This document shows, in pieces, positions 18,005 to 26,130 of a DNA stretch of 37,707 bases. This DNA comes from a virus. The stretch is from IMG/VR virus record IMGVR_UViG_3300021197_001397, positions 1-37,707 of that record, one strand, 5' to 3'. The notes under the pieces are model-generated. The model was not told where the DNA came from. It worked only from the letters and a program-made list of their open reading frames with translations, and searched no databases. The position numbers and the translations under genes are program-made. The first letter of the stretch is position 1. Each line of letters starts with the position of its first letter.

Positions 18005-18154
18005 ATGAGTAAAGAAGTAGAAATTAAGCAGAAGAAGATATCATGTCATTTCAGACTAACTCCATGGCACAGAGATAAGCTCAAACGCATTGCAGTGATA
18101 AACAGAAGAGACATGACAAGTGTGATTGAAGAATTAATAGAGAAAGCAAAATGA
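18005..18154 (+). CDS. Small ribbon-helix-helix-like regulator
   Basis: 49 residues: Lys-rich start (MSKEVEIKQKK), strand ISCHFRLT, then two helices (PWHRDKLKRIAVINRR and MTSVIEELIEKAK). This again is the CopG/Arc strand-helix-helix arrangement, with polar residues in the strand that could contact DNA. It is the first gene after a terminator and operator site B, which suits an autoregulated repressor. Its stop overlaps the ATG of the RlpA-like gene (ATGA). No classical CI-type repressor is visible in the window, so this or the protein at 17607 is a candidate lysogeny regulator. Confidence 0.55.
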   Translation: MSKEVEIKQKKISCHFRLTPWHRDKLKRIAVINRRDMTSVIEELIEKAK

Positions 18155-18534
18155 AAATACTAATAACAATAATAGCAAGCGTAGCAGTTTTTAGCTGGGT
18201 GATCAGCAGACCATACGCAGAACAACCAACCGTAAAAGCATCTTGGTATGGCAAAGCTTACCGGGGGAATTTATGCGCTGATGGCAAGACGGTCTTTGAT
18301 GAGCGTGACCCCACAATAATAGCGCATCGAACATTACCATTTGGAACTAAGCTAAAAGTAAATATAACTAAAAATCGTTATATTATTGGCACAGTTTTAG
18401 ATCGTGGCCCGTGGACTAAGGACAAATCTGGACGGTACAAAAGAGAGGTAGACCTAAGTAAAGCTGGGTTTGTTCAACTCTGTGGAGACTCTGACGCTGG
18501 AGTTATTTCTGTAAAACTAACTATCGTGCCATGA
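18151..18534 (+). CDS. RlpA-like secreted cell-wall enzyme (double-psi beta-barrel)
   Basis: 127 residues. A signal peptide is clear (MKILITIIASVAVFSWV, cleavage probably near residue 23, PYAEQ). The mature part has RlpA landmarks in order: ASWYG (30-34), AHRTLPFGT (58-66), DRGPW (84-88) and VDLSKAGF (100-107). In RlpA these belong to the lytic transglycosylase barrel that cuts denuded glycan strands. There is no SPOR domain, so only the catalytic barrel is present. It could act as the phage lysin, exported by the Sec system, or alter the wall of lysogens. It lies between two DNA-binding proteins, not next to a holin. Confidence 0.75.
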   Translation: MKILITIIASVAVFSWVISRPYAEQPTVKASWYGKAYRGNLCADGKTVFDERDPTIIAHRTLPFGTKLKVNITKNRYIIGTVLDRGPWTKDKSGRYKREVDLSKAGFVQLCGDSDAGVISVKLTIVP

Positions 18535-18845
18535 TTGAATATCTATCTGCACAAGAGGTAGCTGAAAAGCTGAACATGTCTCTGAGAAACATAAGACGGC
18601 ACATCAAGACTGGTAAGTTGAGGAGTCACAAGATTGGTAAACTTAGGAGGATCTCGATTCAAGACTTCACGTTGTTTGCTGAAGGACGAAAAAGAAGACA
18701 AGAGAACCAAAAGATAATCGATGAGATGGCAGCAGCAGACTGGGCTAAGGCAGTCAAATGGATGAATGAGAATATGGACAAGATCCCAACTCAGCCATGG
18801 TACAGACAATCAAGTCCACCAGTTTTATCAATTGGGAGTAGATGA
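18531..18845 (+). CDS. Excisionase-like helix-turn-helix protein
   Basis: 104 residues. Residues ~3-50 (YLSAQEVAEKLNMSLRNIRR, then TGKLRSHKIGKLRRISIQDF) are a MerR/excisionase-type winged helix: helix-turn-helix, then a short Gly/Lys hairpin and an Arg-rich wing. The C-terminal half is a charged helix (AAADWAKAVKWMNENM) followed by a Pro/Ser tail. Start overlaps the RlpA-like stop (ATGA); the end overlaps the methyltransferase start (ATGA at 18842). With an integrase nearby, a role in excision is likely, though this fold also serves in general regulation. Confidence 0.65.
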   Translation: MIEYLSAQEVAEKLNMSLRNIRRHIKTGKLRSHKIGKLRRISIQDFTLFAEGRKRRQENQKIIDEMAAADWAKAVKWMNENMDKIPTQPWYRQSSPPVLSIGSR

Positions 18846-20098
18846 ATGTGGATACTACCCAAACAAATCATCTCAGCTTCTGCGCTGGGTACGGAGGCAT
18901 TGATCTCGGACTGCGAAGAGTTCTCCCAACTTGCCGAACAATCGCTTATGTGGAGATCGAAGCCTTCGCAGTTGCGAACTTGGCGGCAAAGATGGAAGCG
19001 GGAGAGTTGGATCAAGCACCTATCTGGACGAATCTTAAAACATTCAATGCAGAACCATTTCGTGGCTTGGTGGACATCCTGTCAGGTGGCTATCCGTGCC
19101 AACCATTCTCAGCAGCAGGAAAACGACTCGGCAAAGAAGACCCAAGACACCTCTGGCCGTTTCTGCGCCGATCAGTTCGAGTTATTCGCCCCAGAAGAGT
19201 GTTCTTCGAGAATGTCGAAGGACACATCTCGCTTGGACTCTCCACAGTCATCAGCGATTTGGAAGAAGATGGTTACAGAACAACGTGGGGAATATTCAGC
19301 GCGGCTGAGTGCGGCGCGAGCCACCAGAGAAAGCGAGTCTTCATCTACGGAGAATTGGCCGACAGCAGCAGCACGGGATTGGAAGGACAGTCCAGGTCCA
19401 TGGATGTACAACGCAACCAACCCGGATGGAACGGACAGAAACCGAACGGATCAACTAGCGAGAGCAGTTTACCACCGGCAATGGCCGACCCCAACAGCAA
19501 GCGAAGTGAAGGATCAAGGCACAGACTGGGAGAAACTTGCGAAGTACGACAATGGCGGCAGGATTCTGAGGAGAATAGCCAACATGGAGGTCAACAATTG
19601 GCCAACCCCAACGACAGCGGAGGCACAGAAGATCAGCAACAAAGCCAATTACGGTCAGAAATGTCTGAGCAATCATCCTGCAATTCGTGGCCTTCCAGAC
19701 CGGGAGAAGCTCAAAAAAGATGGGAAGAACCAAGAACAATGGCCGACCCCAAGAGCCGGAAATCCGGGAAGTCGGAAACCGGGAACGGGGGGGAAGATAT
19801 TAGAGGAGGAAGCGAAGAAGAATTGGGGAACACCAAGAGCATCAAAAGCGATGTCTGCAACAATAACGGAGAACCTAGTGAATCGCAATGTGGGGAATCT
19901 GGAGGAGCAGCACCCGTCATCAGTGGGACAGAAGTTGAACCCAGATTGGGTGGAGCAACTGATGGGTGTGCCAGTGGGGTGGACACAACTCCCCATCCAT
20001 TGGTTAACAGAGTTGATAGGCTCAGATTGCTTGGAAATGGAGTTGTCCCAGCAGTTGCAGCAAAAGCCTGGAGTGAACTAAGTAACAGATTTAAATGA
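18842..20098 (+). CDS. DNA cytosine-5 methyltransferase
   Basis: 418 residues with all main C5-methyltransferase motifs. These are SAM-binding FCAGYGGIDLGL (motif I), GGYPCQPFSAAGKR with nucleophile Cys86 (IV), FFENVEG at 121-127 (VI), HQRKRVF (VIII) and RLRLLGNGVVPAVAAKAW at the C-terminus (X). Residues ~170-370 form the target-recognition region. It is low in hydrophobic residues and repeats a short unit five times (LADSSS, MADPNS, LANPND, MADPKS, LGNTKS). It would methylate cytosines in a specific site, probably protecting phage DNA. The same DNA is open in a second frame (18846-20081). The stop overlaps the start of a nuclease gene. Confidence 0.85.
   Translation: MNVDTTQTNHLSFCAGYGGIDLGLRRVLPTCRTIAYVEIEAFAVANLAAKMEAGELDQAPIWTNLKTFNAEPFRGLVDILSGGYPCQPFSAAGKRLGKEDPRHLWPFLRRSVRVIRPRRVFFENVEGHISLGLSTVISDLEEDGYRTTWGIFSAAECGASHQRKRVFIYGELADSSSTGLEGQSRSMDVQRNQPGWNGQKPNGSTSESSLPPAMADPNSKRSEGSRHRLGETCEVRQWRQDSEENSQHGGQQLANPNDSGGTEDQQQSQLRSEMSEQSSCNSWPSRPGEAQKRWEEPRTMADPKSRKSGKSETGNGGEDIRGGSEEELGNTKSIKSDVCNNNGEPSESQCGESGGAAPVISGTEVEPRLGGATDGCASGVDTTPHPLVNRVDRLRLLGNGVVPAVAAKAWSELSNRFK
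18846..20081 (+). CDS. Overlapping second-frame ORF of the methyltransferase gene (WPTP-repeat protein)
   Basis: 411 codons open inside the methyltransferase gene, starting four bases after its ATG and ending 17 bases before its stop. The product is Trp-, Ser- and Arg-rich. In order it carries LRTWRQRWKRESWIKHLSGR, QRGEYSARLSAARATRES, five units starting at 170, 212, 251, 298 and 326 (NWPTA, QWPTPTA, NWPTPTT, QWPTPRA, NWGTPRA), and KLNPDWVEQLMGVPVGWT near 363. From memory these same elements recur, in this order, in proteins annotated in phages and prophages. That may mean real double coding, or repeated annotation of a shadow frame. Conservation in one frame partly forces the other. Translation is unproven. 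Confidence 0.4.
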   Translation: MWILPKQIISASALGTEALISDCEEFSQLAEQSLMWRSKPSQLRTWRQRWKRESWIKHLSGRILKHSMQNHFVAWWTSCQVAIRANHSQQQENDSAKKTQDTSGRFCADQFELFAPEECSSRMSKDTSRLDSPQSSAIWKKMVTEQRGEYSARLSAARATRESESSSTENWPTAAARDWKDSPGPWMYNATNPDGTDRNRTDQLARAVYHRQWPTPTASEVKDQGTDWEKLAKYDNGGRILRRIANMEVNNWPTPTTAEAQKISNKANYGQKCLSNHPAIRGLPDREKLKKDGKNQEQWPTPRAGNPGSRKPGTGGKILEEEAKKNWGTPRASKAMSATITENLVNRNVGNLEEQHPSSVGQKLNPDWVEQLMGVPVGWTQLPIHWLTELIGSDCLEMELSQQLQQKPGVN

Positions 20099-20433
20099 AC
20101 AGTAGAAACAAAGGCGCAAGAGGAGAACGTATGTGGAGAGATAAATTACGAGAGGCTGGATTTGAGGCTATTAGAGGATGTCAGAATGCTGGCAGAGATG
20201 CTGGTGGTGGAGAAGCACCTGACATTATCTGTCCCAGTCTGCCAGGTCTGCATCACGAGGTTAAATTCGTAGAGAAACTAAACATCCAAAATGCGATGGA
20301 TCAAGCAGTCAGAGACGCAAAGCCAAATCAGATCCCGGTGGTAGCACACAAGAAAAAGAATTGCGATTGGCTGATTACTGTAAAGGCTGAGGATTGGCTG
20401 AAAATCATAAAAGAAAGTGATTCGCTTATATAA
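20095..20433 (+). CDS. PD-(D/E)XK (VRR-NUC/resolvase-like) nuclease
   Basis: 112 residues. The N-terminus NSRNKGARGERMWRDKLREA places Glu11 in the first helix. APDIICPSLPGLHHEVKFVE supplies Asp43 and the Glu55-x-Lys57 pair, and AMDQAVRDA follows as the closing helix. This is the E-D-ExK order of small phage nucleases of the resolvase/VRR type. The start overlaps the methyltransferase stop (ATGA), so the two are translationally coupled. It may resolve recombination junctions, or act as a restriction partner of the methylase. The sequence alone does not decide. Confidence 0.7.
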   Translation: MNSRNKGARGERMWRDKLREAGFEAIRGCQNAGRDAGGGEAPDIICPSLPGLHHEVKFVEKLNIQNAMDQAVRDAKPNQIPVVAHKKKNCDWLITVKAEDWLKIIKESDSLI

Positions 20434-25179: not shown

Positions 25180-25402
25180 GCAGAATGATGATGGATCATG
25201 GAGGTTATGGGTGAACAGTCACGGCATGGATTCACCTGCTGGGACTAGGTTGGATAGAGGTGCATTGTTCCCCCAGGAGACACTGTACGATCACGAGGAT
25301 GAGGCTGAGGCTAAGATTAGTGCGGCTAAGTTGCAGAAGTACATAGACGAGAGAGAAACAGCTTTATGGGTGAATAGGAGAAGAAAACACAAATGGAAAT
25401 AA
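25163..25402 (+). CDS. Small hypothetical protein, GTG start
   Basis: 79 residues from GTG 25163. The N-terminus is a short beta unit (TIYARQNDDGSWRLWVNSHG). A helix (DHEDEAEAKISAAKLQKYID) follows and the C-terminus is basic (WVNRRRKHKWK). No family was recognised. It overlaps the genes on both sides (17 and 10 bases), consistent with a continuous operon from the kinase to the large terminase. Confidence 0.5.
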   Translation: MTIYARQNDDGSWRLWVNSHGMDSPAGTRLDRGALFPQETLYDHEDEAEAKISAAKLQKYIDERETALWVNRRRKHKWK

Positions 25403-26130
25403 AAGATTATTACGACAAGTTCAGTGATGCGTATTTGAACGAGTATGGTTCATTAATTCAATCAACACTGTTTGCTGAGAAACCTAAAGACTTTGCTGAG
25501 GTAATGATGAGCAGAGCAATGATTGCCCCACAGCATAGTGTGCTTGATGTTGGTTGTGGCGTAGGTGGTGTGATGCTTGGCCTCATGGAGAATGGGGTTT
25601 TAGATGTGACTGGGGTGACGATTAGCAGCAGGCAGATTGAGCTTGGTAGGCAGTTGGATGCTGATTTGAATATGGAATTGGCTGATTTTATAGATTGGGA
25701 TGATCGTGGGAGGAAGTTTGATAGAATTATATTCTGCGAGTCTTATGGGTATTTTGCTGAACCTGGCAAGCTGATTGAGAAAGTCCGTGGATTATTGGCC
25801 CCAGGAGGAATGGTTTATGTGAAAGACTTGTGTGCTGTGAATGATCCAGACTTGATGCAGCAGGTTGGTCTCGAATCTTTAGGTAATTTGTGGAAATGGT
25901 ATAAAATATATACTACACAAGAACTAGCATGGATGTGGGGTATGAGGCGAATAGGTGGAGGAGATAATTTATGGAGAGAAACTTCTTGCCGTAAATTTAT
26001 TGATTTTGTTATGGGTGCTGGATCATTTGCTAAAGCTCATGGTGATCAGTTAGCTAAAGCAGGAATGAAACAGCAACCAGCGTGGAATGGGCAAGTGCCA
26101 GTGAAGACGAGTGACTTTTTATTTGCGTGA
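25393..26130 (+). CDS. SAM-dependent small-molecule methyltransferase (cyclopropane-synthase-like)
   Basis: 245 residues. SAM-binding motif I is VLDVGCGVGG at 50-59, followed by GVTISSRQIELGR at 74-86 and CESYGYF at 115-121, then LLAPGGMVYVKD. The GVTIS plus Gln/Ile/Glu helix is typical of cyclopropane-fatty-acid-synthase, sterol and sarcosine methyltransferases, not of DNA methylases. No DPPY or PCQ DNA-methylase motif is present. It would modify a lipid or small metabolite of the host, so it is a candidate auxiliary metabolic gene. The substrate cannot be told from sequence. It lies in the packaging operon and overlaps the next start by four bases. Confidence 0.7.
   Translation: MEIKDYYDKFSDAYLNEYGSLIQSTLFAEKPKDFAEVMMSRAMIAPQHSVLDVGCGVGGVMLGLMENGVLDVTGVTISSRQIELGRQLDADLNMELADFIDWDDRGRKFDRIIFCESYGYFAEPGKLIEKVRGLLAPGGMVYVKDLCAVNDPDLMQQVGLESLGNLWKWYKIYTTQELAWMWGMRRIGGGDNLWRETSCRKFIDFVMGAGSFAKAHGDQLAKAGMKQQPAWNGQVPVKTSDFLFA

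Follow-up and report, generated by a model that had tools for sequence, protein, structure and literature searches.

Two almost fully overlapping reading frames of a phage locus very probably encode the two chains of one C5-cytosine methyltransferase

The methyltransferase locus of the viral DNA analysed here (the window, a stretch of 37,707 nucleotides from IMG/VR record IMGVR_UViG_3300021197_001397) very probably encodes a single C5-cytosine DNA methyltransferase as two polypeptides, alpha and beta, read from almost fully overlapping frames that we call frame 1 and frame 2. Sequence comparison across homologues shows that both frames are open and selected, that the functional parts of the enzyme are divided between them, and that they share a start region. 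A first-pass annotation of this DNA had proposed that the repeat array may be constrained in both frames, an interpretation that is supported by the results below; that complementary parts of one enzyme are spread over the two frames had escaped it.

Frame 1 (18842..20098, plus strand) encodes 418 residues, with an ATG at 18842 or a GTG at 18848 as candidate starts. Profile matches to PF00145 (E 2.6e-31) and phrog_363 (E 6e-55), together with an M.HhaI-like model, identify its product as the putative catalytic, alpha-like subunit carrying motifs I-VIII and X. Frame 2 (18846..20081, plus strand) lies in +1, begins four bases later and encodes 411 residues; from its openness in homologues and its match to phrog_1008 (E 2.3e-22), its product is predicted to be the recognition, beta-like subunit, with an N-terminal helical domain, WPTP modules and motif IX. 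The first-pass remark that frame 2 resembles annotated phage proteins was right: besides phrog_1008, whose profile matches 69/69 members of the frame-2 alignment, phrog_26627 also matches it. Pfam yielded no family for frame 2. The two open frames reported over the methyltransferase gene were borne out against a synonymous-shuffle null, which does not keep codon-boundary dinucleotides and for which controls come from the third frame and from neighbouring genes: none of 200 shuffles of frame 1 reached an open +1 run of 411 codons (shuffle mean 151), and the same test gave P 0.17-0.94 for 18 other genes of the window, so that chance is excluded as the source of frame-2 openness. Stops in the +1 frame of the other window genes number 599 observed vs 559 expected.

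The same frame is open throughout a family of homologues that was assembled without reference to it. A frame-1 query of viral contigs returned 80 loci (66 distinct genes), frame 2 being ignored in their choice, and over deciles 1-8 of the 66 genes frame 2 holds 1 stop vs about 318 expected from synonymous shuffles, a count that covers related genes rather than independent events. The few remaining frame-2 stops lie near the start, mostly in the ATGA overlap, or past motif IX. Third-frame stops in the 66 homologues (901 observed vs 988 expected) and stops in the flanking genes of the loci (1268 vs 1288) are near expectation, and a frame-2 query gave stop depletion similar to that of the frame-1 query. 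Because frame-1 amino-acid identity between the homologues and the window is mostly 45-60%, the openness of frame 2 is old and maintained.

Divergence by codon position, measured over 50 independent close pairs of 70-97% identity (42 pairs for finer windows), reveals which frame is under selection in each segment. In motif X it peaks at frame-1 position 3 (0.32 vs 0.09 and 0.05), and in motif IX at frame-1 position 1, which is the wobble position of frame 2 (0.27 at frame-2 position 3 vs 0.06 and 0.05 at positions 1 and 2). In the recognition region, which is poorly aligned, the frame-2 wobble position is again the fastest (0.32 vs 0.21 and 0.25), except at frame-1 codons 286-300. Over the catalytic region the frame-1 wobble position is fastest, yet its divergence is lowered (0.16 overall, with 0.07-0.12 in codons 16-75 and 0.07-0.24 across the N-domain), and frame 2 therefore constrains this region too. 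A BLOSUM-similarity z test gave z 4 in motif X vs 21-65 in the N-domain and motif IX; frame 3 also has a high z, because shuffling breaks shared ancestry, and only the contrast between segments is usable. The two marks of an overlapping gene pair selected in both frames, a shortage of stops and a lowered rate of synonymous change with respect to frame 1, are thus both found, and on these patterns both frames are real and under strong selection. The first-pass annotation had named these two signals, in homologues with an intact frame 1, as checks on its idea that the repeat array may be constrained in two frames; frame-2 stops proved near-absent, and frame-1 third positions are held where frame 2 is functional and free elsewhere, which supports that idea.

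Frame 1 carries the catalytic motifs I-VIII of a C5-methyltransferase (PCQ, ENV, QRKR), with P85 C86 Q87, E123 N124 V125 and R163/R165 invariant in 68 sequences. Near its end lies motif X, NRVDRLRLLGNGVVPAVAAKAWS (20009..20077, plus strand), with invariant R, D, R, G, N and G; within it, RVDRLRLLGNGVVP includes the invariant G398 N399 G400. An AlphaFold2 model of frame 1 consists of a confident catalytic core (residues 8-172) and two confident motif X helices (390-417), with mostly low confidence or disorder between them. The modelled catalytic fold resembles those of M.HhaI (Z 20.0, rmsd 3.1, 205 residues aligned) and M.HaeIII (Z 18.0), each of which is one chain with its own small domain, whereas the frame-1 model has no confident small domain. 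A target-recognition domain and motif IX were sought in the frame-1 chain and are absent from it. The first-pass statement that frame 1 has complete methyltransferase motifs therefore stands for I-VIII and X and fails for motif IX and a recognisable target-recognition domain; since the recognition region and motif IX are coded by frame 2, frame 1 alone would lack a DNA-recognition domain. A single conserved element within the recognition region, WPSRPGExQxxWExPR (19686-19739), belongs to frame 1 itself; it may contact the partner chain, because the truncated frame 1 of two homologous loci, L139 and L180, ends just after it.

The N-terminus of frame 2 (18846-19105; MWILPK...SLMWRSKPSQLRTWRQRWKRESWIKHLSGRILKHS) is strongly conserved over about 75 residues and predicted to be helical. 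Pfam gave no match to this domain, and the N15 and Redbud lineages lack it; possibly it is a dimerisation or DNA-binding domain. Further along, QRGEYSARLSAARAT, five repeat units and KLNPDWVEQLMGVPVGWT were all found in frame 2, as the first-pass annotation had reported. The units, all on the plus strand, are WPTAAARDWK... (19356..19481), WPTPTASEV... (19482..19598), WPTPTTAEA... (19599..19739), WPTPRAGNPGSRKPGTGGK... (19740..19823) and WGTPRASKA... (19824..19931). They had been said to coincide with five LAD/MAD units of frame 1, and for four of the five this is accurate, their DNA fitting TGGCC[GA]AC (WPT over LAD, MAD, LAN and MAD); the fifth is TGGGGAACACC (WGTP over LGN).

Motif IX, KLNPDWVEQLMGVPVGWT (19932..19985, plus strand), follows the array; it is identified from its invariant residues, its frame-2 wobble pattern and its alignment to the single-chain enzyme of Mycobacterium phage VRedHorse. 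In the consensus LNPxWVExLMGxPxGW, the residues L, N, W, V, L, M, G and G are invariant in 68 sequences. The structural model of frame 2 is poor (mean pLDDT 57), save for helices at the N-terminus and one at motif IX, and with it a Foldseek search of the PDB gave chance matches only; phmmer and hmmsearch of frame 2 against the PDB returned nothing relevant.

Frame-2 proteins carry 2-6 WPTP-type units with a median length of 42 residues, and the types are not fixed in place. The type of unit 4 recurs at other positions in nine other arrays, the type WATPRAGKTTDENP... occupies array positions 3/4, 4/5, 2/5 and 3/5, and some types precede several different units. The sequence of the array thus fits a set of swappable recognition modules rather than the simple repeat expansion first suggested. 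An unusually long array is found in the frame-2 ORF of L180 (2474-4363), which has some 630 codons and around ten WPTP-type units. Multispecific phage methyltransferases combine several recognition domains in one enzyme. The window's frame 2, with several recognition-like modules, is comparable to such phage and prophage C5-methyltransferases, of which BCE_0393 is an example (PMC3459991), in that several specificities may reside in one phage enzyme.

The start region places both frames under one putative ribosome-binding site. A Shine-Dalgarno-like GGGAG (18834..18838, plus strand), read directly, is followed at a distance of 7 nt by the frame-2 ATG and of 9 nt by the frame-1 GTG, and these two codons overlap as ATGTG (18846..18850, plus strand). 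The surrounding ATGTGGAT is conserved among loci, being present at 83/129, with ATGACATGGAT at a further 22. Within 60 nt upstream there is no other frame-1 start at 48 of the 83 ATGTGGAT loci and no other frame-2 start at 61 of them, and 73/103 homologues have a Shine-Dalgarno-like motif ahead of the frame-2 ATG. The TGA stop (18843..18845, plus strand) of the upstream HTH gene (18531-18845) abuts the frame-2 ATG and overlaps the frame-1 ATG as ATGA. The open stretch of frame 2 begins deeper within the gene in the N15 and Redbud lineages.

From these features we infer that ribosomes start at both codons of ATGTG from the one Shine-Dalgarno site, possibly with initiation coupled to the upstream HTH gene at ATGA/TGAATG. 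Frame 1 would yield the catalytic subunit, with the AdoMet-binding and catalytic motifs I-VIII and the C-terminal motif X helix, and frame 2 the recognition subunit, in which an N-terminal helical domain precedes the WPTP modules, acting as the target-recognition region, and motif IX; the two chains would then join as one enzyme. The WPTP modules may read the DNA, in which case a module swap would change specificity. Where frame 1 crosses the recognition region, and along parts of frame 2 that cross the catalytic region, the reading frame would stay open so that the ribosome reaches the functional part downstream. Orphan methyltransferases of phages usually protect phage DNA from host restriction, and by analogy methylation by this enzyme would shield the phage DNA in the same way.

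This interleaved form occurs in Paenibacillus larvae phages, in E. coli phage N15 (gp58), in Burkholderia BcepC6B, Salmonella SEN4 and Klebsiella, and in Acinetobacter ABMM1, Lacticaseibacillus R9.1 and Xanthomonas PhiXhv-28; both frames are annotated in the last of these and in the Paenibacillus larvae phage Redbud, where the frame-2 ORF is called 'g50 internal gene'. Outside the actinophages, 3/3 lineages selected by frame 1, N15 gp58 included, have it. An N15 frame-1 query found motif IX in +1 at 5/5 loci, and a Redbud frame-1 query at 53/80 (43 distinct genes of the Paenibacillus-phage lineage), with 1 frame-2 stop vs 199 expected in the 43 genes over the second half of the catalytic N-domain and the stretch from the recognition region to motif IX. 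A further 26/80 Redbud-query loci were missed by the motif IX regex, and 22/22 of those checked show frame 2 open over an unusual length (P <=0.04 each). A scan of bacterial and archaeal genomes with frame 2 placed motif IX in +1 of a methyltransferase at 70/80 loci and in line at 0; frame-2 stops in these 70 prophage or bacterial loci number 1 vs 218 expected, which, since the loci were selected by frame 2, is not an unbiased stop test. In a tblastn search of plasmids the frame-2 query gave weak matches only and a Paenibacillus protein query did better. Plasmids of Bacteroides finegoldii and Paenibacillus bovis (L171, L172) have two-frame methyltransferase genes whose catalytic frame is absent from the gene table used, and a Porphyromonas phage record (L175, 1444-2058) shows the reverse of the usual omission, the frame-2 ORF being annotated as a hypothetical protein and the overlapping methyltransferase frame not.

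The frame-2 type also exists outside the two-frame arrangement, which the first-pass annotation had suggested looking for: it lies in line in actinophage methyltransferases and in conventionally split genes elsewhere. The VRedHorse enzyme is one 433-residue chain that matches phrog_363 over 1-430 and phrog_1008 over 276-432 (E 6e-61), with LPTPVARDFKG, LPTPSASDG and motif IX (EWMMGWPAGW) in line, and its gene has no unusually long second frame. A profile comparison of frame 2 with VRedHorse aligned motif IX (E 6e-5) and the WPTP units (E 6e-7), in short stretches only. Single-chain actinophage C5-methyltransferases (VRedHorse, Gordonia phage Gudmit) therefore share with the window the same PHROG families for the catalytic part and for the recognition region and motif IX, and differ in having all parts in one frame. 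The in-line arrangement is found in 23/32 relatives of the VRedHorse enzyme. Several of the 32 are split by a frameshift into two overlapping ORFs (L364, L365, L366, L368), which may mark the beginning of a path to the interleaved form or may reflect sequencing or assembly error.

The existence of such a complete protein in one frame lends some appeal to programmed frameshifting, by which one polypeptide would pass from frame 1 (motifs I-VIII) to frame 2 (recognition, IX) and back to frame 1 (X), since, joined in this order, the parts add up to a whole C5-methyltransferase. Two shifts would be needed per protein, and openness would be predicted near the shift sites only, whereas no stops interrupt frame 2 in the catalytic region or frame 1 in the recognition region; frame 2 also has its own conserved start and conserved N-terminus. 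Because both frames are open throughout, we regard a programmed double frameshift as improbable.

In six loci (L106, L139, L154, L158, L180, L200) motif X lies in the frame-2 ORF together with the recognition region and IX, and frame 1 is shorter, ending shortly past motif VIII (L106, L154, L158, L200) or after the WPxRPG element (L139, L180). The actinophage, six-locus and window layouts thus represent three arrangements of the same parts: in line, split in the manner of M.AquI, and interleaved. This bears on the suggestion that both frames are translated and that frame 2 has a separate function, for example as an anti-restriction or DNA-binding protein reusing an old recognition domain. The extra conserved helical domain at the frame-2 N-terminus in the window's subfamily is in keeping with such a role, which would however leave frame 1 without motif IX and a recognition domain; moreover, nearly all examined frame-2-type loci lie in +1 of a methyltransferase, and in the split forms the same motifs are divided between the two chains, so that a separate function appears as improbable as frameshifting. 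Least probable is that frame 2 is an untranslated shadow frame, open through frame-1 composition or DNA-level constraint and annotated by mistake, a caution raised by the first-pass annotation that fits the high Trp content and the frequent lack of annotation of frame 2 but was not borne out, given the stop depletion beside a normal third frame, the frame-2 wobble pattern at motif IX and the in-line presence of the same region in actinophage enzymes. Composition as the cause of such a shadow was rejected by the synonymous shuffles and by the third-frame and neighbouring-gene controls.

Two subunits of one methyltransferase, the reading that we prefer, have precedents. The small-subunit gene of M.EcoHK31I lies inside its large-subunit gene, in another frame. 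In this two-polypeptide enzyme (YGGCCR) the larger subunit has motifs I-VIII and X and the smaller motif IX (PMC3404938), which, compared by motif description, is the division between frames 1 and 2 of the window. The window's type differs from M.EcoHK31I in its near-complete overlap, which spans nearly all of the gene and comes with shared start codons, in having recognition modules on frame 2 (the target-recognition domain of M.EcoHK31I is assigned to the large subunit), and in its wide spread. M.AquI (CYCGRG) is a naturally split C5-methyltransferase with the catalytic motifs and recognition/IX on separate polypeptides (PMC3404938), as in the window; its motif X is in the small subunit, whereas that of the window stays in frame 1, and its division, with IX and X on the small chain, is seen in the six loci above and not in the window. 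Our search of the literature for an overlapping phage C5-methyltransferase, with most subscription journals outside its scope, found only two-polypeptide enzymes.

The two-frame arrangement recurs in hundreds of phages and prophages, and at the loci examined usually one half is annotated. It seems likely, if less firmly so than for the locus itself, that such C5-methyltransferases form a very common class among phages and prophages, in which two subunits come from one DNA stretch with overlapping starts on one ribosome site, interchangeable recognition modules evolve in one frame while the catalytic chain stays readable through the same bases, and half of each enzyme is largely unannotated. 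Outside small viral genomes it is rare for two selected frames to overlap over several hundred codons, and here such an overlap recurs in unrelated phages, the well-studied N15 included, and in prophages of many bacterial phyla; the locus is also a test case for the evolution of two proteins on one sequence. Gene finders penalise overlaps (PMC6070908), and therefore only one frame is annotated in most records examined; a phage methyltransferase that was recoded for cloning, or studied through frame 1 only, would in that case be incomplete. Methylation specificity, and hence the host restriction systems evaded, may be predictable from how many frame-2 modules there are and of which type.

Among the other genes of the window, a small secreted-looking protein with a DPBB_1 match (lytic transglycolase, RlpA-like; 18151-18534) is encoded two genes upstream of the methyltransferase, and a PDDEXK/RusA-like resolvase gene (20095-20433) overlaps the last bases of the methyltransferase gene as ATGA. 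A second, unrelated protein with a methyltransferase fold (Methyltransf_23, E 1e-14) is encoded at 25393-26130.
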